Part shown: positions 24,192-44,621 of the stretch, piece after piece
How the letters are laid out: every line of letters starts with the position of its first letter
Position numbering within the stretch: the stretch's first letter is position 1
Assembly (NCBI GenBank): GCA_024663395.1
Contig: JANFAH010000031.1
Coordinates: 248,001-312,000 of the forward strand
From: Pisolithus tinctorius
Lineage: Eukaryota; Basidiomycota; Agaricomycetes; Boletales; Pisolithaceae
Length of the DNA stretch: 64,000 bases
Direction of reading: 5' to 3'
Program-made: the position numbers and the translations under genes
The notes under the pieces: model-generated
Seen by the model: the letters and a program-made list of their open reading frames with translations, nothing else
Databases searched by the model: none
Told to the model about the DNA's origin: nothing

Positions 24192-24216
24192 CACCGAGGG
24201 AAGTAAACGCACTGAA
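24192..24216 (+). repeat. left terminal inverted repeat of the DNA transposon
   Basis: 25 bp beginning CACCGAG. It pairs with 35821-35845 with two mismatches, one of them C/T in a CpG. Confidence 0.85.
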
Positions 24217-24525
24217 AACAAGTGCCGCATGTACTGTATAATAGTCCCAAAAGCACCGGATATCAGTTCCACACGATGAAAATCAGTCCCAAATTGTGGC
24301 ACTGATATTTCATTTTTGCTACTAATAACTAGTGCCATGCATCAGTGTCATTGACGTGTTTTTTCAGTGTCAAAACGGTACTGATTTCCAGTCATGTTAG
24401 GCACTTATTTTCCGGAAATTTCCATTGAAGAAGGCACTGATTTTCGCTCACAATGGCACTGATTTTCAGTCAAGAGCGCACTTATCATCAGTCACAAAAG
24501 TACTGTTTCACTTGCAAAGTTAACA
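24217..24525. repeat. left subterminal repeat array
   Basis: Many copies of GGCACTGATTTTC-like and ATCAGT(C/G)CC-like words on both strands, spaced 20-50 bp. The same words recur at the right end. A likely role is transposase binding (inferred from CACTA elements). Confidence 0.75.
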
Positions 24526-24534
24526 TTGATTAGA

Positions 24535-24840
24535 CAGCACATCGACATTAAGTGCTGCTAGGGAATTGACGATACAGATTACTGGGTGCATAGAAGTCCA
24601 AGTAGCACGAGGCGGAAGTGAGTTCCGATGAAAGTGCATAAACAGCGTGGCTGGGGAATCAACAATACACATAGCTGGGTGCATAGAAGTCCAAGCAGCA
24701 CGAGGTGGCAGTGAGTTCCGATGAAAGTGCATAAACAGTGCAGCTGGGGAATCAACAATACACATAGCTGGGTGCATAGAAGTCCAAGAGGTGCGAGGTG
24801 GCATTGAGTTCCAATGAAAGTGCGTAAATGGTCTTGAAAG
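24535..24840. repeat. 93-bp tandem repeat, about three copies
   Basis: The phrase TGCATAGAAGTCCAAG recurs at 24587, 24680 and 24773, exactly 93 bp apart. As 93 is a multiple of three, all three minus-strand frames stay open through the array and can look like a repetitive protein. Confidence 0.85.
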
Positions 24841-24956
24841 TGTCCAAATAAGTTAGCTAAAAGGAAATGAGAGTGGATTGACAAGGCGCAGCCTAGTTAT
24901 GAATGTTCTGTCATGGTTGGCCTCACTGAGTCTTTGATCGAGTAGTGCGATTTGCC

Positions 24957-27900
24957 TTAGCATGTTCCTGTACATTCGACCACACATGAGTCACAAGTGC
25001 AGAAAGGACGGTGATGGGGGTACGACAACTGAATTGCCTTATACTCACTGATGTCACGAGTCTGGCAGTTTGACCTATGCTTGCATTTGGGGCGTGCTGC
25101 TGGACCTGTGTAAGTGGTGATATCTATATCAGTATAACACATTGGAAGCATCGAAGGCAGTACACATGCAGTGGCCACTGGCGGCACTGTTGATTGGGAC
25201 TTGCTGCTCGGCATGACCATCGTGGTCTGTAAGGTTAGTAGTGTTAGTAAGGCACAATGTTAGTGGGATAAAGTGTGTAGTGAATGTTAACCTTCACCTG
25301 CTCTGAATGTAACTTGTTGGCAGCTTGATTGGAATCATCGTCTGTCACAAGTAATTTAACTCTGAGGCAAGGTCGTGGCTAAGGTGAATGGTGTCAGTCA
25401 AGGCACAGCCTACACAGGATGATGGAGTAGGAGATGCCTTCTGTGTTTGCCCTTGGAGTTCCAGCAGAGCCTGAGCGGCATCCCGGGTATCACTTGTCGC
25501 TTCACGTGTCAGGAGCTCCAGTTGCTTTAGTCGAAAGGCGACAATGTTTCTATGAAATATCTCCTCCAACTCTGCATCGTCATCATTTGCGGGGTGGATG
25601 AGGGAACCTGCATCGCTACTTGCAACCATAATCTTGTGCGCCTTGACAACTGTTGTGGGACTGTAATCATCTGCGATCAGCAAGGTCGCTACGTAGGGCA
25701 CCATAAAGTATGTCATGAATTGTGCGAGCAGTAGAGGCCGTATTGCTGCAGTCAACTCTGCTGATGCCGGGAACAGGGCAATGAGGGTGTGCTCGATGAT
25801 TGCAGCTCCCTTGTCGCCATAACTGCTCAGTGTTTACATCAATTTCTGCACAGTTGAAGAAATGAGTTGCATGTTAGGGACGTACTATCCAGCATGCGAG
25901 TGGTCCAGAATTGCTGATCCGGAACACAGTGCTGAGTTCTGCATGCGAGCTGGCTTTTCCAACGTCCACCCATCTTCAACCAAGTCAGCCTCGAAACACT
26001 TCCAGATATGCTGCTGCTTGCGGAGGCTCCTGTTACGAAGAATCGGATCTAGCTGGTCTCGCCACTTGACGATATGCCCTGGAATCTGCTTGAAGTCAAT
26101 CATGCTAATGGGCCAACCTTTTTTCGCTGCAATCTTGAGTTGTTCATATTTCCTATACTCCCTTTTGATCATGGTGCAGATCTGAGCTCCTAACTGGACT
26201 GTCTCGAAGTTATGCCCATGCTGTTTTCAGGTCATGGAAACATATCTTTGTAACGCTGCGAAAAGATCTTGAGGACATTCTGGATGGGACCTTGTCCTGG
26301 CAATATATGCCCAGACATTGTGGTGGGAAGTCATCTTGCGTGATCACAGATGACTGTGTTTCTGCGTTGTCCTCTTCGTCAGTCAAGTCCTGCATGAACT
26401 ACATGAGAACACTGGCTGGCATACACAATAAGTACATCTACAACTCACTTGTAGTCCAAGGGACATGTCGTCCCTTTTCTTCTTCTGTGACCCATCCTGT
26501 GTGAGTATGAGAGCACAAAAATGGAATGCGAAGTTTTGAAGGCACACATACATGACATTCAGAGGCCGCTGGCACCTCTGCTTCATCGGCTTGCTCCCAT
26601 ACTGATGTGAGTGGTCTTGGAGTGCACGACCCATTGCTGATAGATTCCTGAAAGAGTGTGAATGCACAGAGTGAATGACTTTCCAGACCATACCTGTCAT
26701 TCCATTCCCAGCATGCCATTTGCTGCTCGTAGTATGCATGATTGCTGGTTGTCAATTGATTCATCCACCAGCTCATTTCTCTTTCTCTAAACTGTGCGGC
26801 GCATCATGAACATCAGCTCGTGACTACAGCTCAATATACTCGCTCACATTCTTCTGAGTACCACCCAGGCATTGGTGACCCTTATCACCCTTGGCATGCA
26901 TGTTGGGCTGGATGTCATCGTCACTAACAATCGACTTTCTCTGAAAAATGTTCAGGCATCAGTTGCAATCACATACAGCTTACTTCTTCACCGTTTTCTG
27001 TCTGGCTTCCATGTGTTTTGGGTAGACACTCCTCTCATCTTCATCTTCATTGTTGTCATCTTCATCATCGTCTTCATCCCTCTCCATCTAAATGACACAG
27101 AGTGAGCTTGAGATAGTAGATGTTTTTTTACCTACCTTTCTCTGTGTACCCAGAGCGTGTTTGCTGTGCCTGTTACCAGCACCAGCATTGTCTGCATACA
27201 TTTCCTTGGACTCGGACTGGGAGTTGTCTCTCTTTCTCTAAGCGGCATGTAAATAGTTCATGATAGTAGAATGCACATTTGCCTACCTTTTTCTGTGTAT
27301 CCGAAGTACGTTTGATGTGCCTTTTATCGCTGGCATCGTCTGTGTCCATTTCCTCGGACTCAGACTCGGACTCGGACTCGGACTCGGACTCGGACCTCTT
27401 TCTCTAAGTGACACGAAGTGAGTTCGTGATAGTAGAACATGCATGCCTACCTTTTTCTGTGTACCCAAAGTACGCTTGATGTGCCTGTTATCACTGGCAT
27501 TGTCTGTGTCCACTTCCTCGGACTCAGACTCGGACTTGTCCCTCTTTCTCTGAATGACATGGAGTGAGTTCGTGATAGTAGAACACACATGCCTACCTTT
27601 TTCTGTGTACCCGAAGTACGTTTAATGCGCCTGTTAGCACCAGCATCGTCTGCGCCCACTTCCTCCTCATCTTCGTCATTAGACTCTTCTCTCTTCCTCT
27701 AAATGTACCAGGGAATCAACTCAGATCAAAATATAGATAAAAGTAACTGCCAACCCTTGCTTCAGCATTCTCTTTTTGCCTTCATTCAGATGTTGACTGG
27801 TTTTTCAATACCTGGGCAATTAAAGCACGTGCACCCCAGCCTCCCTCACATTGCATGAGGATTTCTGATTCTGCTTGGGCCTAACAATGTGAATCTTGGT

Positions 27901-28331
27901 TATTAGTGGCTATATGCACTTAGAATGTGCTCCCTTACCCTCCAAATGACTTTCTCGACAAGGAGCTTGTCGCTTTGGTGAGAAAGCGAATGACTTGTAT
28001 CCAGGTAGCAGTAGACCAATTTCTGTACAACATCCTATTGAGTAGCATACAGGTAATAAGAATACAATAGTAGGGATGGAGGACGTACTGAAAGGTGATT
28101 GTACATGTCCTTCTTCTCTGTGAGTCCCAAGGCATCTATTAGCTTGTAGCTGCTGCCTCGACCTGCTCGGCCCTTGGGCTTGTTAATCAATCTCAACCGT
28201 TGGTTAGTATGTTTATCTTGCTGTTTTTTCCGCCTCCTCTCCTCTTTTGCATGGTTCTTTCCTGCAGGAAGAGATATGAGATCTAAATGGTACCTGTCAG
28301 TATCGATGAACTCACATTTGTGCACTTCCAA
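24957..28331 (-). CDS. uncharacterised cargo gene of the Plavaka-type element, many exons
   Basis: ATG at 28331 begins MEVHKCEFIDTDRYHLDLIS, then a Lys/Arg-rich stretch and KAGRGSSYKLIDALGL-like residues. Exons continue DVVQKLVYCYLDTSHSLS, AESEILMQCEGG, four tandemly duplicated acidic/basic exons (27698-27136), an Asp/Glu-rich exon, HAYYEQQMACWEWNDR, KREYRKYEQLKIAAKKGWPIS, LLLAQFMTYFMVPYVATLLIADDYS and a final Ser/Pro-rich region near 25220-24957. I have the impression that the MVPYVATLLIADD-type segment recurs in uncharacterised mushroom proteins, but I assign no function. It is divergent from the transposase, 215 bp apart. Exon borders are approximate except in the duplicated block, and the 3' end is uncertain. 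Confidence 0.55.
27136..27698 (-). repeat. four tandemly duplicated phase-0 exons
   Basis: Exons at 27698-27597 (34 codons), 27549-27451 (33), 27403-27287 (39) and 27237-27136 (34) each begin RKR and end in TQKK or TQRK. Introns of 47-49 bp separate them, with GTAGGC donors and TTAG or TCAG acceptors. All are multiples of three and bounded in phase 0, so copies can be added or skipped without a frame change. A Ser-Glu run of seven pairs lengthens the third copy. Confidence 0.85.
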
Positions 28332-28546
28332 ATCCCATGGAGTTCCGATAACGACTCTCCTAATTTATTGATCCTTGACTGCTTCTTGTGCTTCAGCTTT
28401 GTCATTGAGGCTGGAGGCTTGATGGCAGAGATGATATGGCACTTAGGATAACGGATGTAAGCAACGACCTTGGAGTGGCTGTGCTCAGGTCAGGTGATCA
28501 CAGCTTGGTACATGTTGCTAAGTCAGTTAAGTCAAACATACTGACC

Positions 28547-31500
28547 ATGCCTCCAATTCGATCTCCAAGGAGGAAACGTTGTTGGTGCAATCCAGGATGT
28601 GGTGTGCACTTGAGCAGCACTCAGCAGTGGCGTCACTATAAGAAGGCTGTGTCCATGGGGCAACTGGCAGGCATGCGTGACTCTGAAAGCCTGACAGGCG
28701 AAGAAAGCCCCCAACTAGATCTGGCTGAAGGTCAGCTCAACAAGCTGAACATTAAATGATACTAAAGTAATCATCTCAGGTGGTCATTCCCGCCTGGCAT
28801 CTCCATCTGAGTCATCGGACACAACAGGTGTGAGTGGGGTGTCCAAGTCTGAGGCCGACCCCGGAAGTGATGTTCAAGATGATGTATGGGTATGGGCTGA
28901 AGAGCTCGAGGGAGATGATAATGAGCTGCTGGATGAGTTGGAAGACAATGCGAGAAACGAAAGAGAACGAGATCTGTTCACTCTCCGTACGTGCCCAGTT
29001 GCCCTGGCTCTAATGCGTGAACTGATCATGCATCAGGGAATGATATTCTATCAGACAAAGATCGCGACAATATCCGCACATTTAACCTCCTTATGATGGG
29101 CCAAATCACTCGATGTGCATACTCACAGATGCAATTCACTTTCCGACACAAAATGAACCTTGACTCGCAATATGTCATCTTTCAGCGTGTGGCCAAACTA
29201 TCTGGGATCAAACCCCTCTTGGTTGACTGCTGCGGAAATTCATGTGTGGCCTACACTGAAAAATATATTTATCTTCAGTCTTGTCCGTTCTGTCGAGAAG
29301 CACGATTCAACCAGTACGGAAGGCCACGTCGACAATTCATGTATCTCCCGCTTATCCCACAACTGCAAGGGTATTTCCAAAGCATGAGGATGATCAAAAC
29401 GCTCTCATACCGTGCGGATTATGATATTGGGAGAGGAGAGATTGTGGATGTATTCGATGGGAATCATTACCAGTGGCTTCTCCATTGTCGTGTTATTGTT
29501 GATGGAGAAGAGTTACCTCACCAATACTTCTCAGATTCCCAAGACATCGCATTGGGCCTTTGTACCGACAGCTATTTACTCTTCAGGCAGCAATGCAAGG
29601 GCCCATCCGGTACACCACTCCTGTTGCAGAACTACAACCTGCCTCCGCATGTGCGAACTCACAGCAAAAACCTATTGTGCATCGGAATTATTCCTGGCCC
29701 GCACCAACCCAAGGACCTTCATTCTTTTCTCATTCCCCTGGACAATGAATGTGCCGAGCTAGCATACAGCGTCCAGACTTTCGATGCATCCCAGCAAGCC
29801 CTTTTCAAGATGCACGCGTATATCATCGTCAAATCTGGTGATATCATCGCAATTGAGTGCTTCTTAAATCTCAAGGGCCATAACTCAATCTTCCCTTGAC
29901 GTTCGTGCAAGGTGAAAGCTGTTCATGGCTTAGGCAAGACCTATTATGTCCCTCTTCACCTGCCATCTCAAAACCACAGTGCAAGGACCCTCTATCAACC
30001 AGCCCCTTTACGACACCACGATGACTTCTCAGATGTAATGGTGAGGATTGCGGTGGCCGAAACAAAAAAAGAGATGGTGATGATTGCAAAGGAGACTGGC
30101 ATCAAAGGATTGCCAGGCCTGACTCGTGTCAGGTCCTTGGATTACGCACGATCATCCCCATGGGAATGGTTTCATTTGTTCTTAGAGAACATTGTCCCGA
30201 ACCTTGTCGACTTCTGGACGGGCCAATTCAAGGGTCTTGGGACGGGTAATGAAGACTTCAAAATTGCGACCGAAATTTGGGAGGAGATTGGAAAAGAAAC
30301 TGCTGCTGCTCTCCGACACATACCATCTACATTTGTCCGCATGCTCGTGAATATTGCAACAGACCGCTCACTCTTTACGGTGGAGACATGGTGTTTTTGG
30401 TTCGTGCATCTTGCTCCGAAGCTACTGAAGGGGTGCTTTCCCAAAGACAAATACTACAAGCACATGTGCGAGCTAGTGGCAATCATGAAGGCTACTTTAC
30501 AGTTTCACACCCCACACAGACAACTTGACAATATCGAAAGATGTGTTATAGATTGGGTGCAGAAATATGAGAGGTATGCGTGTTTCTGATTCAATTGTAT
30601 CGCAACACTAATTTTTGTCAATAGATACTATTATCAATACAACATCGAACGCCTGCCAGCTTGCACGCTCACAATCCATGGTATTTTACATGTCATACAG
30701 GGTATCCGAGACTGTGGGCCGGTGTGGACCACTTGGACCTTTCATATGGAGCACTTTTGTGGGATGCTCCAGAATACACTCTGTTCATGCAGCCACCCTT
30801 GGAGTAATTTAAATAAAGCATTACTTCATTGCACATACCTGGAACAGTTGTGGATGTGATACAACCTTTCAGATGAGCTTGCAAATGAAGACGAGTGCGA
30901 AGATGACGGTCCAATAGGATATGAACGTGTCCTCAAGGATTGTGAGTATGCACTGATGTCACTTACATGCAAAACTCATTCTCAAACTGACCAGACCCAG
31001 ACCATGTGCTTCGGCCTCCCTATGAGATGGCGCACAAGCTTGATTGTGACCTCCATGAAAGGATCGCACGATACTTGGGACAAGTACTTGGCAAACGAAG
31101 CTCAGAGATCAAGAAACAGCTTCCAGCACTTGTGCTGTTTACAGCAGGCAAGCTTAGGGTCCGCCATGGTGGAGACTTATTTCGGACTAAAGAAGTGTCA
31201 CACAGATTTGGTGCATTAGAGCGGAGGAATTGCTATGTCAGAGTAGGTCCATCATGGTCAGATACTCATAATGTCTCTAGTTACTAAATACCATAGTTCG
31301 AAACAGTGTTTGAGACCTGCACAGGTTCTGTCTTAACCCAAACTGGGTATGGTGACCTAGAAAAAAATAATAGCCCTCGTTTTGCCTGCCACACCGCTCT
31401 TTGGAGAACTCAGAGGCAAAACCATTGTTGTCGCACTTGTTAGACCATGGGACACAGATGGAAAGGTAGCCTCAGAAGAGGTTGTGTTCTTCGAGTCTCG

Positions 31501-31681
31501 AAAAGCAAGGATAATTATGGATATCAGGAGTTTAAGAGCTGTTGTAGGCCTAGTCAAGACACAAGGGAGATGGGGTATCATTGACAGGGCACCTGGGACA
31601 GCGACGACAACCTTCGCAGACAATATGATGGAAGGATATTTACATGATGAACATGGTGACGATGACGACTTCATTTTGTGA
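28547..31681 (+). pseudogene. Plavaka/Tnp2-like transposase with premature stops
   Basis: Begins MPPIRSPRRKRCWCNPGCG, a short Cys-rich head. Splicing at 28731-28779 and 28987-29036 joins an acidic region to SDKDRDNIRTF and the transposase body. Recognisable parts are SCPFCREARF, DVFDGNHYQWL, DIALGLCTDSYLLFR (probable catalytic Asp), NYNLPPHVRTHSKNLLCIGIIPGPHQPKDL, MHAYIIVKSGDI, and CGPVWTTWTFHMEHFCGML with HPWSNLNKALLHCTYLEQL. TGA stops interrupt the frame at 29897-29899 (where the family has Cys in a CxxC) and at 30857-30859. The tail ends EHGDDDDFIL. This copy is therefore unlikely to make an active transposase. Confidence 0.82.
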
Positions 31682-32224
31682 GAGAAGTAGTTGATTCAAT
31701 ATAATACCATATACATGGGAATTCGTGGTGCGACGATGCGCAGGATATTGATACATATATACATACTGGGGAGAGATGTGATCCCTTTCCAGGTGCGAGC
31801 CCTGACTCAGTACACTCCAGATCCAAAAAGCTACCTGAAAGATGTCACAACGGACCTGCACCCACAATAGTCAATGACGTCTCCACCTGAGAAGGTGACT
31901 CCTACAGGTCGTCGACGTCCTCACACAAAGCTGTCCTGGTGGTGATGGAGCCCACACTGCAGCCATAGACAGTGATGGTGGAGCTGGAGATGGGTTGAGA
32001 ACTCTTCGTGATGGGGTAGAAGGTAAGGGCGATGGTGGCAGCTGCAGGAGGGGCTGACTAGGAGGGGGGGCAGGTGGACAGATGCCAAAATGGTGCCAAG
32101 AGCCAACATTGTTGAGCCTGGTGTTACAGGTCCTTGGGGAGGGGAGGCTGGGACGAAGGATAGTGAAAGTGGCATGTTCAGTGGTACTCACCTTGCGCCA
32201 ATTTCATAATGTTCTGGTGTGTAT

Positions 32225-33030
32225 GGATTACTTACCCGCACCAGGGGTGGGCCAAAAAAGACAATGCACCTTCACTCGATCGATGATCTTGAAGCGTCTG
32301 GAACTATCAACTTCTGCGACATTCCCAGTGTGTATCCAGCCGTCCCTCAGCATCTCCTGGGTAGTCTTCTCATCTGATGGATACCATTTCTTTTCACAGG
32401 CCTTAGTAAATGGCAAAGAGGAGACGTACCTTTATAATATCCCATGAAGCAGTTCGGGCCGCAGACACATAACTCTCCATGTGGGTTCGGCTTATTGCTA
32501 GATAAGTAGTTCATTGCTGGAATGTCAACGAGCTTGATCTCGAGAATTGGCTGAGGTGGTCCAATCGTCCCTCCACCAGTTGGGTCTCCCTGCAACGTGC
32601 GCGTACAGACTCCACAATTCTCTGTCATACCATAACTGTACAGAGTCATTAAAGGAACATATTCCAGCGATCTTAAGGCCTTGCTTACCCTGAACGAAAG
32701 TCAGTGAACGAAAAAAAAGAATACTTGTCGTACCTTCTGCAACGTCACAACCGAAAGCAATCTTGAGGAAATCAACTACTTCGCCACTGATGGGAGCCGA
32801 GTCTGTGACCATCAGCAGAATATTACCTCCAAGTACAGCGTGAATCTAGCCAATACGCTGAGTGAGCCATTCTAACACTACATCAACCAACCTGCTACGA
32901 ACCTTGCGGAGCACCAATGCATCCCATGTGCAATTAGGAACGTATTGAGGTGTAGCACAAAGAAGCGACCTGATCAGGAGACACCGGAAGGGGTTCAATG
33001 AGATTTTCCTTGCCATATGTCTCGACTGTA
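32225..33030 (-). pseudogene. captured fragment of a long-chain acyl-CoA synthetase gene
   Basis: Minus-strand pieces read YGKENLIEPLPVSPDQVASLCYTS, CTWDALVLRKV, VTDSAPISGEVVDFLKIAFG, YGMTENCGVC, GGTIGPPQPILEIKLVDIP, GELCVCGPNCFMGYYKG and GWIHTGNVAEVDS with RFKIIDRVK. These match the middle of fatty acyl-CoA synthetases (AMP-binding superfamily) in order. The N-terminal part is absent. The glycine-rich ATP loop after YTS and about 100 residues before WDALVLRKV are missing, and the C-terminal region ends at IDRVKV. Intron remnants separate the pieces. It lies wholly inside the DNA transposon, so it looks like a gene fragment picked up by the element. Confidence 0.85.
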
Positions 33031-33154
33031 CAACTGAAGGTCAGTGTGTGGGCCTGCCTGTCGAAAAAAAAACAATCACAAGTCAATTTTGTGACCACAT
33101 ACCAACTGTCTCCATGTCTGTTGCCTTGAGTGTGAAAACCACGAAGACCTACTA

Positions 33155-33570
33155 CATGATATGGGCGACAGATGTCAGCCAATGGTTTCACGAGCAGGTC
33201 GAGGAGGTCTGGGTGCATGAGCACCAGCTCACAGAAATGGGCAACAGATGTAGGCCAACTATTTCAATGAGCTGAGAAATCATGAACACTTACTCCATGA
33301 TATGGGTGACAGATGTCGGCCAATGGTATCACAAGTAAGGCTCAGCGAAATGGGCAACAGATGTCAGCCAACGGTTTCATGAACAGGTCGAGGAGGTCTG
33401 GGTGCATGAGCACCAGCTCACAGAAACGGGCAACAGATGTAGGCCAACTGTTTCAATGAGCTGAGAAATCATGAACACTTACTCCATGATATGGGTGACA
33501 GATGTCGGCCAACGGTATCACAAGTAAGGCTCAGTGAAACGGGTGACAGATGTTGGCCAGCAGTTTCAAT
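33155..33570. repeat. 189-bp tandem repeat, just over two copies
   Basis: GCACCAGCTCACAGAAA recurs at 33221 and 33410. A shorter inner unit (GGGYRACAGATGTYRGCCAA) repeats about six times inside it. No coding sense is seen. Confidence 0.8.
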
Positions 33571-33726
33571 GATCCTGCAGAGTTAGTATTAGAAGCTGCC
33601 GAGATTTGAACATGCGTGATGTACTGTGGTCGGTTACGTTGTGTGGACCTGTTTTCACATCAACAACACAATTTTCTTGTTGCAAGTTAGCACGTCATGC
33701 ATCAACATTTCGTTAAGGAACTATCC

Positions 33727-35394
33727 ATGGCCAGAACAAGGCAGAACACGAAGAAAACCACGTCCGGTATCGCGCCACGAGTGCAAATCATTCGCACTGC
33801 TTGCGCCACCCCCATCCAACGCGCATCCGTGCAGTCCACCTCAAGGGCTTCAACACTGAGTTCATTGACATCCATTCCATCCTCTTGGGGACAGTCCCCT
33901 CTGGCTGAGGAGTGGCGTAACTGGGTATGTACTATAGGTCCATCCTCCTATCACTGCTAACACGATAAGTAGTATTGCTACCTTTGCCACAATGGAGCTA
34001 AATACTTATTCGAGTGCTATTCCTGCCCTCGTGTCATGTGCGACCCCTGCTTAGGATTAGCGCAGTGGCTCACGGACAAGGCCCATGCCAAGGACATAGA
34101 CTTCCAGTGTCCTGGTTGCCACAAACTCGAAGAGGGTGGTGCGAAGCGCAAAGAGCTACATCCGTACTTCGTGAGTTATTCATTGTTCACAATCTGAATA
34201 GAGCTGACATGAGTCCAAGCCATTCACGTGCACAGTACTCAGGAAGAGAATTCCCATGTTGGATAAGCCAGTCATCATCTTGGGGATTTGTGAAAGGGCA
34301 TCTAAGTCTCAAGTGTGTGCCGAGTCCACCCTTATTCTTGAGCTCGTCTGCACAGGAGTGGAAATTCAAGGTTCATTGCCATCACTCCTCAACACGACCA
34401 TCGAGGAATATCACACAAGCGACTCCCTTCTGTATCAAAAAATAATCTTCGATTTTGGTACGGATCGAAAGTTTAGTTGGTGGAGTACAAGGATCAAAAA
34501 ACTGGGTGAAAAGTTGGGCACATACGCCTTCAAGCACAAGATCATATTCATTACTGTCCATAGCGAAGTCACCTGCAGTGACCTGTTTGCAGGGAAGGGC
34601 GAGAGTGGTGAGGATGTTGCAATGGAGGTTGGCGAGGTATGTGACTGACATGAGGAGGTTACTCTCTCTCATCCGTTTTAGTTCATGAAATGCCTGTTCA
34701 CTTCTCCCCTGCAAAACATGGTCTACGGTTCTATGCTGTTTATGTTGACTTGTGGCCCTGTGGTTTCCTTTGAACAATCATTCGCAGCATTGAAGCAATC
34801 TATCATGCAGTCAGTTATTAATGATTGATCTATGAAGAACCTTACTAACTGTTGCCAAGACTCCGGCCAGAGTATACAGTCGCATTCACCGCCAAGGATT
34901 TCCTCAATGCGGTCGTCAAAATTTTCATCGTGTCGTACGGCGTCAAAGTCTTAATTGAAGGACATGCTCTGGAGAACGTTATCCATGACCTACTCGACGT
35001 CTCACTCGAACTTTGGATGCACACTGACGTGATGCTCTTTCATCTTTCAGGCCTAGGATTGCCAAGGGTGCCATGGTTACTTAGCCCTGCCCCACTCACT
35101 GCCACCCCTCTCCTCGCTATATACAGGTACTCATGGTACCACAGCCATCGGCGCCCATGGGGCACATCTCTATCCATGGGGTGCCTGAAATGTGGTGCCA
35201 TCCGTCCATGGGCACAATCAAAGCTGGACTCTCATCCACCAAGTGGTTATCACCCAAAGACTCGAGTGTCCATGTGCCACAAGTGCGCCTTTGAGGTGCG
35301 TACTCAGCCTCTACCGGTTGAATACGACGTGCTCCATGGTGATCCTACATCTGGGTGGCTCAAATACACCGTTTGCGCTGCAGTGCCACTGTGA
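33727..35394 (+). CDS. H3-tail-mimic protein with eight-Cys PHD/ADD-like finger (transposon cargo)
   Basis: Five exons (33727-33924, 33973-34170, 34247-34636, 34682-34809, 34860-35394) join without a stop into 482 codons plus TGA. Residues 1-18 are MARTRQNTKKTTSGIAPR; after the initiator Met this follows histone H3 ARTKQTARKSTGGKAPR closely, keeping ARTxQ, K9, T11, G13, APR and Q19. Residues 68-115 hold C-x2-C-x9-C-x2-C-x4-C-x2-C-x19-C-x2-C, a cross-brace zinc finger of PHD/ADD/RING type. The body includes LDKPVIILG, IFDFGTDRKFSWW, IIFITVHSEVTCSDLFAG, MLTCGPVV and TVAFTAKDFLNAVVKIF, and ends in a zinc-ribbon-like CLKCGAIRPW plus MCHKCAF. Function is unknown; chromatin mimicry is inferred from the N-terminus. 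An in-frame ATG at 33697 could add ten residues and hide the mimic. Confidence 0.82.
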
Positions 35395-35514
35395 TTTCGT
35401 GCATTTGTCTGTCATTTATACACTTGATACTTCCAAAGTAATGTAATACCGTGTCTGCATGCAATCTCACTTTATTGGTTTGACAACTTGGTGTGAGTAA
35501 ACAAGGTGACAATG

Positions 35515-35820
35515 TCATGTACTAAATATCAGTGCCAGTAAACTTCGAGTACTGAAAGTCAGTGCCTAAAAAAATGTGGTACTGAAAATCAGTGCCTAAC
35601 AAAATGTGGTACTAAAAATCAGTGCCAACAAACTTGGGGCACTGGTTTTCAGTGTTGCAAAATATGTGGTACCGGGAATCAGTGCCAGCAACTGAAATTT
35701 AGTGCTCCAAAAAATGCACACTGAAAATCAGTCCCGCAAAGACAACACTGAAAAGAAGTGCCCACTAGATCAGTGCCAGTGGTACTGATTTTGCTCAAAT
35801 CAGTACCACTGGCACTGATA
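35515..35820. repeat. right subterminal repeat array
   Basis: At least eight copies of a phrase like GTACTGAAAATCAGTGCC, mirroring the left array. It ends in a long hairpin and the right terminal repeat. Confidence 0.8.
35769..35819. repeat. perfect 23-bp inverted repeat with 5-base loop
   Basis: Arms 35769-35791 and 35797-35819 are exact reverse complements; each holds CAGTGCC and GTACTGAT. The loop is TGCTC. It directly abuts the right end of the element. Confidence 0.9.
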
Positions 35821-35845
35821 TTCAGTGCGTTTACTTCCCACAGTG
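35821..35845 (-). repeat. right terminal inverted repeat of the DNA transposon
   Basis: On the minus strand it begins CACTGTG and continues as the left repeat. CAA follows at 35846-35848. Confidence 0.85.
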
Positions 35846-38833: not shown

Positions 38834-41800
38834 TCATGAATAGTCATCTGAGTCGTAGTCGATATTGTTATTGGTTTCTCTGTTTTCATCATCTGTTTCA
38901 TCTTCTTCATCATTGTCGTTGTCATTGTCGTTGTCATTACTGCTGTTATTTTCTTCTTCTTCATCTCTTTCTTCTTCCATAACACTGGGCAAGGGAGTGT
39001 GGCGAGAATAATAGGGAATGAGTCGAAAAGCTGCGACACCTCGAGCAGAAATGGTGCCATCAAGTTCTTTAAGGACGTAGGAGCCTCCCTTGGTGCGACG
39101 AACAACCTCATAGGGACCAAGGTAGCGTGGCTTTGATTTGCGATCCAGTTCCTTCTCTATCTGCGTGTTGCGAACCAATACCAAATCTCCTGGCTCATAA
39201 GCCGACTTCATCAACCGTAAAGCATACCTCTTCTCAAACTGACCCTTGGAGCGTAAACGAGACCTCTGCAAAGTGGTGAAAGCAGCATTGATATCTTCCT
39301 CTCTCTTTTCCAACTGTCGAATGCGAAGTGTGAGAAGCTCTTGAGACGACATTCCAGAGTAGAACCCTTCAACGAGACAGGTGGACTCGAAGAGGTCAAA
39401 AGGCAGGACGGGATCAAGACCATGTAGCAGGAAGTAGGGGCTGAATCCAGTGGAGCGACGAGTAGTGACCTTGTCTGCGAAGAATGCATGATGGACCTTG
39501 GACGGCCAAAGCGAAAGATCTCCTTCACAAGCCTTGATGATAGCCTCTCTGATAACAAAGTGACCACGTTCTACAACTCCATTTGCCTTGGAATTATATG
39601 GGGAGATGCGAATCTGAGGAATGGAGTAGTGCTTCATGAGTTTCTCAAAGGCGCCCTTGACCTCACTGCCATTATCAGTGACAACCTGGGCAATAACACC
39701 ATAACGACAGAAGACTTCTTCCCAGAAGAATTTAGCAAGACTGTCTGCATTGGCATGACGAAGAGCACGACCTTCTGCAGCGAGGGAAAGATCATCTCGA
39801 GCTGCGACAAGATAGCGATAACCACGTGCTTTGGGCATGAGCATGACGTCGACATAGACCTTCATAAAGATTCTGGGGGAAGCAGAAATGGTGATGGGAA
39901 CCTCTGCTTTACGAGTGCTTCGGACCTGGCATTCATGGCAAGAGTGGACATGATGGGCAACGTCTTGGTACATCCGAGGCCAGTAAAAGCGCTGTCTGAC
40001 CGTATGAAAGACTCCAAAGACTCCACGATGACCAAGTTCTTCATGAGCGTGACTGAGGATCTGGACACGGAGATGGGGATCAAAGACGACCTTGGCTGGA
40101 GGATGAGGACCTCGACGTTTAAAGAGCTGGTCTCCATGAAGGAAGAACTGGAGGGATCTGCGAATGAAGCGCTTGCGAGCAGTACTGGAAGGGAATGGGG
40201 GAAGTTCTGTAGTACGAAGGAAGTGCAGGACTCGACGTAAGAGGACATCTTGAGACGTATCATTGGAAAGGAACGATGGGAGGGTAACGGCATATGTGGA
40301 TTCGTGCGCAAGTCGTTGATGAGTTGCGCTGACTGAAGACGGATGGGCATCTGTAAAAAGAATATTCTCCAACCACTCATCAGCCTCTTCTGCATCAGCT
40401 TCGCCTTCTTCATACTCCTCTTCTGTAGGTTGACGTCTGGAAAGGGCATCTGGGGCTCGGTGACGAACAGCAGGGACATGAATAAGCTTAAAATCAAAGA
40501 GAAGTATACCCTCGATCCAGCGATTGACAGTAGTGTTAGGTTGAAGATCTGGATCATTGAGCATACCTTTGATGTACTTCACATCAACCTCTACCCATAG
40601 ATGACGAACGCCGTAGAGATATAGACGGTAGTGACGAAGTGCTCTGAAGAGACCATAGAGCTCGAGCTTAGGCTGACTGTAGCGAGATTCACGTTCATTG
40701 ATGGGGAGTGAACCATAGCGAGCAGGACGTTTGCGACCTTCTTCATCATACAGGGAGAGAACGAATCCAACGGCGATGTTACTAGTGTCAACGGAAAGAA
40801 CAACTGGCAGGTCAGATGAGTAGTCAATGGGGCAAAGGGCAGGAGCAGACGAGACGGCGAGCTTCAAGGCGTCAAACGCATCTTGCTGGGGCTGACCCCA
40901 AACGAACGGAGCACTCTTGCGATAAAGGTCAACAAGTGGGCGAGCCAACTGCGAGTAGTTCTCAATCCAGATACGAACAGTACCACAGAGACCTAGGAAT
41001 GAGCGAACATCTTTGGGCGTAGCGAGCGTTGGCCAGTTGACGACCTTCTTCACCTTGTGGTCGTCAGGAGAGCGACCATGAGGATGGCATGCTTGACCAA
41101 GAATGATAACACGAGGCTGGCAGATCTGAGATTTCAAGCCAGAAAACGTTCCGCCAGCATGAGCAAACCGATGCATGACTCTATGCACGTCTACAGCATG
41201 TTCCCAAATGAAGCGACGTATGCCGGGATTCTCGGGTAACGTTTCGGCATTGCCATCGGCATCTTCATAACGGGTTGCAGGGCCTTTGACTGGCAGATCG
41301 TCGATGAAAACATTGGCAACGTGAGGGACTTCGTCCTGTAGAATGAACGCTGTACAATTCTGAAACTCTGACGGCGAGTTGGTGTAGCCTTGAGGCATGG
41401 CAGTATGGCGCAGTAAGCCAAGAGGCGTCATGAAGGATGTCAGATCTCGGCTATCGGGATGGAGCTGGCGTGCATCAAATCCTGAAAATAGATCAAAGAC
41501 CGTGTAGCATTGACGACCGGCAAACGGCTCCACAAAGTCGTCCAATATTGGTGGAACACCAGCGTCCCGAATTGTAACCCTATTCAGAGGCTGTAGATCA
41601 TGAACGATACGGATCTTGCCATTCTTTTTCATAATGCAAAACCACTTGGAGCGATAGGATGATTGGGCCAGCTCATAGAGACCAGCGGCGATCTTCTCCC
41701 GAAGAAGCTGTATGACACGTTCTCGTATGCCAGGGGGAATTGGAATGTTACGAAACTCCCATGGTTCATGTGGCAGGACAGGAATGATGTAAGGCGAAAA

Positions 41801-42457
41801 ATAGTCCGAACGGAAGTTGCCTCTCTCCGATTCATCGAACGCCAAGGCACGCTCATTAAGCTTCATGACATGCGAAAAAAGTTTTTCCTCTTCTGGCCAG
41901 AGAAAGCCATCAGCGTTAATCTTCATGGAGGTAAGGCGCTCTTGAGTAAGCTTCTTTGTGGGAATGAACACAGGAGGGTGACAAGTGAGAGGTGTGAGTG
42001 ATGCAAGAGGGTCTTCTGGAAACCGGCGCTGGACTCGAGCGTCTTCTGGATAGACTCCAGGCACTGGCTTGACTTTACGATCGACACGCTTGTACGCTCC
42101 ATATACCGGCTGACCTGTTTCATCGGCTGAGTCTTCTGTATCCATAGCAAGGCCTTTTCTAAAATGTAACAAATCAAGAAAGTCAGACAGGGAATAGTAA
42201 AAATGAAGCTGTTTTTCAGTTTTCTGAATAAGAAGGGGATCTGGTGCTTTTGAAGGATTAGATAACGAAGAAGAGAAGACATCAAGATAAAAGGAGCTCT
42301 GGAAATCTGAAACTAAAGGAGGCATAGTAAGTGATGTTACAGGAGTATCTGAGCAAAGAAACGATATCTGTGGGTTTAGGAGTTTAACGACTTCTCGGTC
42401 AAAGTGAGCAGACAAAGAACAAGAGAAACTATAAGTACAAAAGGGGACATTCAAATC
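38834..42457 (-). CDS. element C pol: reverse transcriptase, RNase H, integrase
   Basis: An intact frame of about 1207 codons in the +1 frame relative to the protease ORF. Reverse transcriptase: FSGFDARQLHPDSRDLTSF, MPQGYTNSPSEFQN and the active site FIDD (FIDDLPV). RNase H: VVLSVDTSNIAVGF, ESRYSQPKLELYGL. Integrase: an HHCC zinc region (HEELGHRGVFGVF ... CHECQ), VDVMLMPKARGYRYL (Asp), VVTDNGSEVKGAF (Asp) and GVVERGH (Glu). The GPY motif YLGPYEVV precedes an acidic Asn/Asp tail. The open frame extends upstream to beyond 43075, but homology begins around 42100. The start given assumes a +1 shift at the protease stop. Confidence 0.88.
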   Translation of the reverse strand, partial: DLNVPFCTYSFSCSLSAHFDREVVKLLNPQISFLCSDTPVTSLTMPPLVSDFQSSFYLDVFSSSLSNPSKAPDPLLIQKTEKQLHFYYSLSDFLDLLHFRKGLAMDTEDSADETGQPVYGAYKRVDRKVKPVPGVYPEDARVQRRFPEDPLASLTPLTCHPPVFIPTKKLTQERLTSMKINADGFLWPEEEKLFSHVMKLNERALAFDESERGNFRSDYFSPYIIPVLPHEPWEFRNIPIPPGIRERVIQLLREKIAAGLYELAQSSYRSKWFCIMKKNGKIRIVHDLQPLNRVTIRDAGVPPILDDFVEPFAGRQCYTVFDLFSGFDARQLHPDSRDLTSFMTPLGLLRHTAMPQGYTNSPSEFQNCTAFILQDEVPHVANVFIDDLPVKGPATRYEDADGNAETLPENPGIRRFIWEHAVDVHRVMHRFAHAGGTFSGLKSQICQPRVIILGQACHPHGRSPDDHKVKKVVNWPTLATPKDVRSFLGLCGTVRIWIENYSQLARPLVDLYRKSAPFVWGQPQQDAFDALKLAVSSAPALCPIDYSSDLPVVLSVDTSNIAVGFVLSLYDEEGRKRPARYGSLPINERESRYSQPKLELYGLFRALRHYRLYLYGVRHLWVEVDVKYIKGMLNDPDLQPNTTVNRWIEGILLFDFKLIHVPAVRHRAPDALSRRQPTEEEYEEGEADAEEADEWLENILFTDAHPSSVSATHQRLAHESTYAVTLPSFLSNDTSQDVLLRRVLHFLRTTELPPFPSSTARKRFIRRSLQFFLHGDQLFKRRGPHPPAKVVFDPHLRVQILSHAHEELGHRGVFGVFHTVRQRFYWPRMYQDVAHHVHSCHECQVRSTRKAEVPITISASPRIFMKVYVDVMLMPKARGYRYLVAARDDLSLAAEGRALRHANADSLAKFFWEEVFCRYGVIAQVVTDNGSEVKGAFEKLMKHYSIPQIRISPYNSKANGVVERGHFVIREAIIKACEGDLSLWPSKVHHAFFADKVTTRRSTGFSPYFLLHGLDPVLPFDLFESTCLVEGFYSGMSSQELLTLRIRQLEKREEDINAAFTTLQRSRLRSKGQFEKRYALRLMKSAYEPGDLVLVRNTQIEKELDRKSKPRYLGPYEVVRRTKGGSYVLKELDGTISARGVAAFRLIPYYSRHTPLPSVMEEERDEEEENNSSNDNDNDNDNDEEDETDDENRETNNNIDYDSDDYS
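40305..40329. repeat. element C palindrome copy within pol
   Basis: GTGCGCAAGTCGTTGATGAG continues into TTGCGC. Here it is read in a frame giving ATHQRLAH, unlike the protease ORF copies. Confidence 0.85.
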
Positions 42458-44621
42458 AATCTTCAAAGAGCTGGAGAAATAAATGATGAGATATGGGAGA
42501 AAGTGGAGGAACACATCTGAGTAGATCATCGGACCTGCCTTGAGCTGAACCTGAGGAAGTGGAAGCAGGAAAGTGGTCTGGGTATGAAACTGCTTCGAAA
42601 GGGGGAGGATGAGCTGAGGCTGAGGCAAAACTGACTGCACTGGCAAGGACATGAAGACCGGAACTTGGGAATGCACCTGTGTCCTCTTCATCCACATCAC
42701 CTGAACGGTCCTCTGCAGCTTCCTGCAAATGAGCGATCCATCCAGTAGGGGTACGACACATGACAACATTGTTGTAAGGCTCTGGCATGGCAACTGACTC
42801 TTCACCAACAGCAGCATTAGATATGGCTTGGGGAGCTGAGGGTAGTAATGGCATAGGAAGAGTTGGACTAGAGGAATGCTGATGCCTGCATAAGTCGTCG
42901 CCGAGTTGTGCAGACTGAGGCAAGGACGGGCTAGGCAGATAGAAGCGAGAGCCAATACTAGTGTTGAACATATCAGAGTCAAGTGGCGAAAGTGTGGTGG
43001 GTACATCTGGGGATAGACTGGACAAGTGGTGGGACACGCACAACTTGTCGACGAGTTGCGTGGACTGAGAGTCATGACCTATATCTGAGGATGAACCAGG
43101 CAACTGCACATGGCTGCACAAGTCGTCGTCGAGTTGTGCAGACTGATGATGGGTGGATGGACTGGGCACATATGGATCCCTGCACAACTCGTCGTCGAGT
43201 TGTGCGGACTGAGAGTCATGGCAAGCATCATGGGAAGTAGGGGCAACTGAACCGCAGTAGGAAGTATTGAAGATGGAGAACGTAGCTTCAGAGTCTGGAG
43301 TGACAGTGTCTCTACAGAACAGAAGTGAAGCCTGGTGGGAACCATTGGTGGGCTCTTCCTGAATGATAACTGGATCTGGGGATGGGGGAGAGGGAGTCTG
43401 AGGCGGAGCAGTAATGCCATTAGAAAGTACATGTGAAGCAGGTAGACTCGAGTTAGACGGCAGGTCTGGAGGTGGAGATGCATTGCTCTGAGTGGGAGAT
43501 GCCTGTGGGAGTAGACGAGGATAGAACCTGACATAGGCAGAACCTTCAAGCTCATGGTAATGCTCTAGTGGGGCAGGAACCTGTCGGACCAAGCGAGTAT
43601 CAAGCATAAGGAAGTCTTGGAAGTAGACTCCTGATTCATCAGTACCTCTTTCTCCAGCAAGTGCATGGTTTGAGTCAAGATAAAGGGAGGATAGATGGGG
43701 AGTGCGATGAGCAAGGCTAGTAAGAAGTGAGACAAGTGACTGGCGCTCTTCTCTTCTGATCTGGCGACGAATCTGGGCAAGGGTAGGATTATCCCCCAAT
43801 CCACTCGCATCAGTGGACTGTAACTCCTGGGTAAGCTGATTGACAAACTCCGAAGGAAAGGGACTGGTAGGAGGTGGGAATGCTTGGACTGGAATGGGAT
43901 GGAACACAGGAAAGGCTGAGGCAACATCAAACCCATCTGGGGGTGATTCAGGATACAGCAGAGTAGAATCAAGTGACTGAGGGGGTGACTGCGAAGTTGA
44001 TGGGGGTGGAGTGAAGACTATGGGTGAAACATGATGAGGGGTACCAACTGCTACATCTCTCATAGGTTCATCGGCTTCTTGCTGAGAATGGACAGGCTCT
44101 AGAGTCACCATAAGGGTATCTGCAACAGACCCAAGCTGGCCTTCAGTAACACACATCTCCAGGGGGTGATCTGAATCAGCTCCAAAGACAACATAAGTTC
44201 CAGACTCTCTTTCAACAATGCTAACCGAGTTCCCAAGAGCCCAAGGACGACCAAGTAGGAGATCAAAGCCTGCATTAGTGTCTGGGGCAACGAATAGATT
44301 GGTCCAAGTCTTGGCAGCACCACAGAAGAGAGGGACATCTTGTACCAGACCTTTCAGAGTAGAGATACCTCCTTTTGCATCTTGCATATTGATGGTCTGT
44401 GACATATCGACAGGCATGCGAATGACTGACTGAGCTATACCAGCACGAACAACATTGAGGGTAGATCCAGAGTCAATGACACCTGTTACGCGACGACCAT
44501 TGCAAGTCAGATTGATAGTGATGAGGGGGCTAGAAGTCAAGGCCAAGTAGGAGGATGCAGGAGGAGTTCCTTCAACGGCAGTAACAGACTTGACTGGCTG
44601 AGCCAGGGGCTGTCTCTTGAA
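42456..44621 (-). CDS. element C protease and long Ser/Pro linker
   Basis: This frame follows the gag stop (TGA, 44624-44622) without a frame change and stays open to TGA 42458-42456. Near its start lies a retroviral-type aspartic protease (VTGVIDSGSTLNVV, catalytic DSG; later FDLLLGRPWALG). The rest, over 500 codons, is a Ser/Pro/Gln-rich linker in which QSAQLDDDLC-like peptides recur four or more times, encoded by the palindrome DNA motif. Expression would need read-through of the gag TGA, or the TGA may be a CGA mutation. Confidence 0.7.
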   Translation of the reverse strand, partial: FKRQPLAQPVKSVTAVEGTPPASSYLALTSSPLITINLTCNGRRVTGVIDSGSTLNVVRAGIAQSVIRMPVDMSQTINMQDAKGGISTLKGLVQDVPLFCGAAKTWTNLFVAPDTNAGFDLLLGRPWALGNSVSIVERESGTYVVFGADSDHPLEMCVTEGQLGSVADTLMVTLEPVHSQQEADEPMRDVAVGTPHHVSPIVFTPPPSTSQSPPQSLDSTLLYPESPPDGFDVASAFPVFHPIPVQAFPPPTSPFPSEFVNQLTQELQSTDASGLGDNPTLAQIRRQIRREERQSLVSLLTSLAHRTPHLSSLYLDSNHALAGERGTDESGVYFQDFLMLDTRLVRQVPAPLEHYHELEGSAYVRFYPRLLPQASPTQSNASPPPDLPSNSSLPASHVLSNGITAPPQTPSPPSPDPVIIQEEPTNGSHQASLLFCRDTVTPDSEATFSIFNTSYCGSVAPTSHDACHDSQSAQLDDELCRDPYVPSPSTHHQSAQLDDDLCSHVQLPGSSSDIGHDSQSTQLVDKLCVSHHLSSLSPDVPTTLSPLDSDMFNTSIGSRFYLPSPSLPQSAQLGDDLCRHQHSSSPTLPMPLLPSAPQAISNAAVGEESVAMPEPYNNVVMCRTPTGWIAHLQEAAEDRSGDVDEEDTGAFPSSGLHVLASAVSFASASAHPPPFEAVSYPDHFPASTSSGSAQGRSDDLLRCVPPLSPISHHLFLQLFED
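42886..43206. repeat. cluster of four element C palindromes in the protease ORF
   Basis: Copies at about 42886-42914, 43035-43062, 43115-43140 and 43181-43206, for example GCACAACTCGTCGTCGAG followed by TTGTGC, which is almost perfectly self-complementary. They encode the repeated peptide SAQLDDxLC. Confidence 0.85.

Follow-up and report, generated by a model that had tools for sequence, protein, structure and literature searches.

Why should a gene inside a DNA transposon begin with an imitation of the histone H3 tail? The window examined here, a 64,000-nucleotide stretch of the Pisolithus tinctorius genome, holds such a gene, and the encoded protein begins MARTRQNTKKTTSGIAPR / MARTRQNTKKTTSGIAPRVQ, with 11/19 residues identical to H3. 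This protein is very probably a member of an undescribed Agaricomycete family whose parts are, in order, an H3 tail imitation (H3 positions 1–17 plus L20), a flexible linker, a PHD finger of H3-reader type, a caspase/CHAT-fold domain with a kept His/Cys pair, and a zinc ribbon. Subfamilies A and B of this family lie in or beside CACTA transposons. The preliminary description of the locus had recognized the tail, the finger, and the transposon-borne setting, all of which stand, but had overlooked the caspase/CHAT-fold domain in the middle of the protein.

The gene, its start, and its CACTA element

The exons of the window gene (33727–33924, 33973–34170, 34220–34636, 34682–34809, and 34860–35394) are intact, as described earlier, and join in frame without a stop across four GT-AG introns of 45–50 nt. 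Public record P0001 (BKA82DRAFT_32498, named Pisolithus tinctorius) has the same start, and residues 1–384 of its 438 are identical to those of the window protein, after which its C-terminus differs. ATG 33727 had been taken as the start, with an upstream ATG at 33697 as the alternative. The other subfamily A copies favor 33727: all eight examined read ACG or ACA in place of the upstream ATG and have an in-frame stop just upstream of that site, so we regard 33727 as the ancestral start and ATG 33697 as a late change. The upstream ATG is shared only by the C125 copy, in which the 3444 bases compared show no difference from the window copy. Features of the window are collected in Table 1; repeat arrays like the one just upstream of the gene also precede B and F copies.

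Table 1. Features of the window, with positions counted from its first nucleotide
Feature	Position	Strand	Remarks
CACTA/EnSpm-like DNA transposon holding the gene	24192..35845	+	11,654 bp; imperfect terminal inverted repeat and CAA flanks
RTC4-like domain frame	25348..25833	-	PF14474, E 1e-7; inside the transposon near its left end
Transposase frame	29021..30856	+	PF02992 Transposase_21; two stop codons
Minisatellite array	33161..33568	+	189-bp unit, 2.2 copies; just upstream of the gene; Tandem Repeats Finder
Gene of H3-tail/PHD/caspase-like protein	33727..35394	+	5 exons, 491 aa
Histone H3 tail imitation	33730..33780	+	residues 2–18 (H3 positions 1–17)
All-cysteine PHD finger	33976..34119	+	C68 to C115, eight cysteines; 12-finger profile matches SP140, CHD4, ATRX, AIRE
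Caspase/CHAT-fold domain	34313..35061	+	~residues 164–381, introns included; 20-residue offset from P0006 model
His246, candidate catalytic histidine	34559..34561	+	end of core strand; H in 183/186 aligned members with a residue there
Cys295, candidate catalytic cysteine	34751..34753	+	end of core strand; C in 169/170 aligned members with a residue there
C-terminal zinc-ribbon-like CxxC...CxxC	35182..35286	+	from sequence; first CxxC in 10/12 aligned members
LTR-type retrotransposon polyprotein	38834..43078	-	1414-aa open frame; reverse transcriptase, RNase H, and integrase domains

The gene is indeed transposon-borne, lying 0.45 kb inside the right end of its element. The element ends in CACCG on the left and CAGTG on the right, its inverted repeat is 86% identical over 35 nt, and a 3-bp duplication, CAA, stands on both sides. 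A Transposase_21 match above the curated cut-off (29021–29896, E 5.7e-16) was the only one listed when four frames of the transposase region were scanned against Pfam, and it occurred in one frame. This frame continues with stops at 29897 and 30587, which is consistent with the transposase having been called broken. The assignment to the Plavaka type, however, has to be replaced. Plavaka termini read TGT..ACA or CATCA..TGATG with a 2–3 bp duplication, according to PMC12730594, and the ends found here are not of that kind; CAC..GTG termini, an inverted repeat, a 3-bp duplication, and a tnp2-type transposase instead make this a CACTA/EnSpm-like element.

The right terminus recurs five times in the genome, always next to a subfamily A locus, of which there are 11. 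Within 32 kb of one of the 128 Transposase_21 matches, a distance set after the distances were seen, lay 9/11 A, 5/5 B, 0/2 B-like, 0/4 C, 2/4 D/E, and 3/40 F loci. For A, B, and B-like loci together this amounts to 14/18 against ~9% expected per locus, counts in which loci such as C31/C125 and the four near-identical B copies are non-independent. On the strength of these neighbor counts, we consider that A and B travel with CACTA elements. Subfamily F, which is not tied to Transposase_21, has spread in another repeat with minisatellites at its sides; three F copies compared were 95–97% alike over 3–4 kb, with long minisatellite arrays on their flanks.

Copies of the element also differ from one another in a characteristic way. 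Relative to the window copy, 79/81 differences in the C14 copy and 104/106 in the C46 copy were transitions, with 53 and 56 CpG transitions, respectively. CpG transitions between copies point to past cytosine methylation of the element, and because its copies bear this methylation-like signature, the element seems to live under silencing. When the window gene at 33727–35394 was set against sister copies L052 and L053, nearly all differences were transitions, and the majority of these fell at CpG.

The H3 tail in related fungal proteins

The window tail matches H3 at positions 1, 2, 3, 5, 9, 11, 13, 15, 16, 17, and 19, the same identities as in the earlier alignment. Over H3 positions 1–17, a script counted 10/17 matches; the chance of at least 10/17 at a fixed site is ~7e-8 if a 7.5% match per residue is assumed. 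We then examined 189 distinct related records, drawn from the matches listed in protein searches (for one search, the best 120 of 131). A 17-mer with at least 8/17 H3 residues was present in 119/189, compared with 0/189 reversed and 3/3780 shuffled sequences. In these 119 records, the 17-mer follows the first Met in 57, an internal Met of a longer gene model in 52, and no Met in 10, so that it stands directly after a Met in 109/189 records and at the annotated start in 57 of these. The likeness to H3 thus exceeds chance and falls at an exposed end. The homologs carry better tails than the window protein, two of them reaching 16/17, which upholds the earlier reading as an H3 imitation and shows it to be real and conserved. 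The remaining 70/189 records had no 17-mer with at least eight matches, and many begin downstream of the tail or are partial. Record P0006, for example, begins at H3 Lys4. In P0032, P0033, and P0046, the tail seems lost or eroded; P0032 and P0033 are seemingly complete records with most of it gone.

The H3 residue is retained at K4 in 54/63 distinct tails, at K9 in 58/63, at A15 in 57/63, and at R17 in 53/63, but at K14 in only 10/63. Of 76 longer tail segments, 51 have Val at position 18 and 60 have Leu at position 20. From these counts, the methylation-type lysines K4 and K9 are retained, and the acetylation-type lysines K14 and K18 mostly are not. Position 8 is Lys in 23/63 tails, P16 is replaced by Lys in 8/63, and R17 by Pro in 8/63. 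The fungus's own H3 genes (L038, L039, L040, and L042) read ARTKQTARKTTGGK, with Thr at position 10, where many tail imitations have Thr, Val, or Ala.

The same genome has 12 places that match a DNA pattern for M-ARTKQTA exactly. Four are true histone H3 genes, and the other eight belong to this protein's subfamilies B (tail MARTKQTAKKSACGTATR) and C (tail MARTKQTAKKVTGGHAPR or ..GLAPR), with four places each. One further copy, D, begins MPRTKQTAKKSNGGVAPR, and the E copy (L046) has a drifted tail, MVRTRSSTKNAKGGSASR. Subfamily F, with the tail MVKTKQTAKKTTGGRAPR, shares an identical 26-base start at 40 genome sites (L054–L059 among the loci); it has Val-Lys instead of Ala-Arg at positions 1–2 and keeps T3-K4-Q5-T6-A7 and K9. 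Genera with relatives include Pisolithus, Suillus, and Boletus, checked as Boletales, and Scleroderma, which we take to belong to the same order. Beyond Boletales, the matches listed include Lyophyllum shimeji (Agaricales; tail MARTKQTARKATGEPAPRKEL) and Irpex rosettiformis (Polyporales; tail MARTKQKPKKSTGGHAPR), so that tail-bearing relatives span three fungal orders, two of these through one species each. Public gene models often skip the finger exon wholly or partly (P0012, P0104, and P0122), miss that of subfamily F, or, in P0007 and P0011, extend the N-terminus well upstream of the tail.

In the relatives compared, the tail is the best-conserved segment. Mean pairwise identity over 66 pairs from 12 diverse members, hand-chosen and all tail-bearing, was 0.68 for the tail against 0.34 for the finger and 0.28 for the caspase-like domain, in a set where the P0122 gene model has no finger and the P0011 and P0029 models are faulty. 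In the same 12 members, identity was 0.25 after the finger, 0.17 at the C-terminus, and 0.13 in the linker. We take the tail to be real because it is the best-kept part in these relatives from three orders. Comparison of A, B, C, and D within one genome over H3 positions 1–16 gave pS of 0.70–1.11 and pN of 0.18–0.34; synonymous change in the tail has nearly reached saturation between subfamilies, and nonsynonymous change is low. The E tail is looser (pN 0.41–0.52 to other subfamilies). We claim selection only between subfamilies because drift within subfamily A is near neutral once transitions and CpG sites are allowed for, and the element's own copies may therefore be decaying. Simple dN/dS values of 0.34 (C14) and 0.43 (C46, with one stop) had suggested purifying selection among recent A copies, but a transition-aware neutral N/S of ~1.6 compares with observed values of 1.14 and 1.53, which are not clearly non-neutral, and this suggestion was dropped.

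The PHD finger and the caspase/CHAT-fold domain

All eight cysteines of the finger (residues 68, 71, 81, 84, 89, 92, 112, and 115) were found where a cross-brace finger had been placed. They are invariant or nearly so in 12 chosen fingers. In an alignment of all 191 sequences, the corresponding columns are gapped in 39–102 and not always Cys, with gaps that stem at least partly from gene models skipping the exon. A profile of the 12 fingers matched structures in the PDB at E values from 3.1e-6 to 2e-3, including SP140 (3.1e-6), CHD4 (5e-6), ATRX (1.8e-5), AIRE (1.9e-5), PHF21A, TRIM24, and others. The six proteins named are H3-tail readers, and the match to their PHD fingers agrees with the H3-reader type proposed earlier. 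When a whole-protein profile of 44 relatives was used, the best PDB match was 3a1b (E 2.1e-5), in which H3.1 and the DNMT3A ADD share one chain, followed by CHD4 and ZMYND8 and, more weakly (E 0.01–0.03), by H3 itself and ATRX. A full ADD has a GATA-like finger before the PHD; PF21255 was touched in 2/44 members, weakly (best E 0.0078), and no separate second finger was identified in these 44.

Gene models had suggested that Val-Lys tails go with loss of the finger, since the finger pattern was seen in 0/20 of them, compared with 38/87 Ala-Arg tails and 4/12 others. We dropped this idea because finger coding is present in the DNA of three F copies, apparently with one more short intron before the last cysteine pair.

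For the middle of the protein, a caspase fold (clan CD) is predicted in models of two relatives that are 45% identical to each other. The model of P0006 places H266 after strand 258–265 and C315 after strand 309–314. Judged in this way from strand ends, His and Cys stand at the ends of core strands as a candidate dyad, and the pair is kept in 161/165 members. The best structure match was SAVED-CHAT. Whole-model Foldseek TM-scores were low (0.22–0.24). The catalytic His of caspases is usually followed by Gly, the HG motif; here, Ser or Thr follows in 12/12 aligned members, and because HG is lacking we have assigned the protein to neither the caspases nor the CHAT proteins. No Pfam family scored above its cut-off in the window protein or in seven diverse relatives (P0110 touches PHD at 15.3 bits, cut-off 24), and 44 relatives drew only weak scattered matches (best E 0.0072), with no curated family for the middle domain. 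NCBIfam likewise gave nothing above cut-off for eight members, and the zinc-ribbon-like part matched no curated family above cut-off.

Two AlphaFold2 models, one beginning at H3 position 4 and the other keeping the initiator Met, did not show the tail docked on the finger. Residues 1–10 are disordered in both (mean pLDDT 35 in the model lacking Met-Ala-Arg-Thr and 27 with Met kept). Within the N-terminal 90 residues, only 11–20 are ordered in the first model (mean pLDDT 73); in the second, the same stretch is disordered (pLDDT 33).

Possible roles of a built-in H3 tail

The tail had been proposed to serve self-binding or chromatin mimicry, roles that we can only infer. As the best explanation of the whole we tentatively favor a caspase-like protein that responds to chromatin and has an H3 ligand built in. 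A tail and an H3-reader finger, both conserved, share one chain with an enzyme-like domain, which suggests a finger ligand replaceable by real H3. A shade more tentatively, the mechanism would run as follows. Removal of the initiator Met would expose a free Ala-Arg-Thr-Lys end, and the tail could then occupy the PHD finger of the same or a neighboring molecule, the occupied finger determining which state the caspase-like domain adopts. Real H3 tails would compete for the finger when their Lys4 is unmethylated, so the protein would dock on Lys4-unmethylated nucleosomes, where the putative protease would switch state. The likely use for the transposon would be cutting or displacing chromatin or silencing proteins. 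This reading is favored by the well-conserved tail with its K4 and K9, the reader-type finger, the 3a1b match, the caspase fold with its His/Cys pair, and the silencing signature. Against it stand the Val-Lys tails of subfamily F, which keep finger coding and are not predicted by strict Ala1/Arg2 docking; the drifted E tail and the near-loss of the tail in P0032 and P0033; the disorder of residues 1–10 in both models; and, for the enzyme, Ser/Thr after His, low TM-scores, and a middle domain with no curated family. According to PMC10393158, the enzyme domain of DNMT3A is blocked by the ADD domain of the same protein and freed by H3K4me0, so that there an H3-reader module sits beside an enzyme domain that it can gate. 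The family differs in having a caspase-like rather than a methyltransferase domain and a built-in ligand, and its gating is our proposal. That transposons have spread a whole class of such chromatin-gated caspase-like proteins, with their own H3 tail as intramolecular ligand, sensing Lys4 state and switching proteolysis of silencing factors, we consider doubtful.

Nearly as likely as the built-in-ligand mechanism, and like that broader claim on the unlikely side, is a decoy acting in trans. The tail would imitate H3 toward the host's Lys9 methyltransferase, HP1-type proteins, Lys4 writers, or an LSD1-type demethylase, recruiting or titrating them near the transposon, and the finger and caspase-like domain would act separately, for example by finding chromatin and cutting a captured partner. 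Retention of K4, K9, and their surroundings but mostly not of K14 and K18 fits this idea, as does subfamily F, which keeps T3-K4-Q5-T6-A7 and K9 without A1-R2 and so suits partners other than the finger. Lys at H3 position 8, as in 23/63 tails, is thought to weaken recognition by Lys9 methyltransferases, which speaks against a decoy, and the presence of tail and H3-reader finger in one protein would be left unexplained. The CpG decay of the copies means that counter-silencing would pay, and TET/JBP genes with a presumed role in escape from silencing are present in other DNA transposons of fungi (PMC12730594).

Less likely is a substrate-imitating prodomain, in which the caspase-like domain would clip H3 tails and its own H3-like N-terminus, as a pseudosubstrate, would keep it shut or be self-cleaved near Arg17. 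Conservation of A15–R17 and L20 beside a variable linker and the ordered residues 11–20 of the first model are what this improbable reading has in its favor; the disorder of that stretch in the second model and the Lys and Pro substitutions at P16 and R17 (8/63 tails each) count against it. We give slightly less credence still to a host conflict sensor, an immune-type caspase-like protein whose H3 tail is bait for enzymes of intruders or selfish elements, with the transposon copies as captured host genes. The caspase/CHAT fold with SAVED-CHAT as best match, the strong multiplication in Pisolithus, and the 4/4 subfamily C loci with no Transposase_21 match within 32 kb would agree with a sensor, but no receptor or NTPase domain was seen in the protein, and 14/18 A, B, and B-like loci lie near such matches. 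A tail with no role, either left over from a captured H3 exon or resembling H3 by chance, is very improbable: recent A copies do drift almost neutrally and some members have lost the tail, but reversed and shuffled controls exclude chance, and the tail is conserved across orders, with synonymous sites saturated, and kept more strongly than the protease-like domain.

The modules of the protein each have known relatives, but no such family or natural protein of this make-up was found in the open-access literature among the matches listed, or in the Pfam and NCBIfam scans, in a survey that beyond this genome covered the protein database. The family resembles PDB 3a1b, which we take to be a construct made for crystallography, in joining an H3 tail to an H3-reading ADD/PHD module in one chain, but 3a1b has the true H3 sequence and no caspase-like domain. 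Its finger shares the pattern CxxC.dGG...C..CpR with the H3-reader PHD fingers of SP140, CHD4, ATRX ADD, AIRE, PHF21A, and TRIM24, and Cys, as in ATRX, rather than His serves as its fifth ligand. H3-reader fingers elsewhere are known to bind H3 in trans; unlike these readers, the family holds an H3-like tail within the same protein. Its identity to SAVED-CHAT and caspases is ~5–13%, and it lacks the HG motif, SAVED and CARD parts, and any curated family match.

The histone mimics known so far are mainly short motifs, carried by viruses and by a small number of host proteins. Influenza NS1, SNAIL SNAG, and G9a, like the present family, have a short H3-like peptide in a non-histone protein; here, however, the imitation spans residue 1 to ~20, has been conserved between fungal orders, and is joined to an H3-reader finger and a caspase-like domain. 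Proteins of a widespread fungal family begin by imitating the first 17–20 H3 residues, and this imitation shares its chain with a finger of tail-reading type. If tail and finger interact, the protein would be a naturally occurring chromatin sensor that brings its own ligand and is coupled to a caspase-like domain; it would give transposons a new means of meeting silencing and would be nature's version of the crystallographers' H3-ADD fusion, used by mobile elements. Short peptides and a single recombinant domain could put the tail-finger idea to a direct test. The TET/JBP-bearing DNA transposons of fungi (PMC12730594) likewise carry an additional gene directed at the epigenetic layer, but the protein in this family is a different one, which would act, if at all, through histone recognition.
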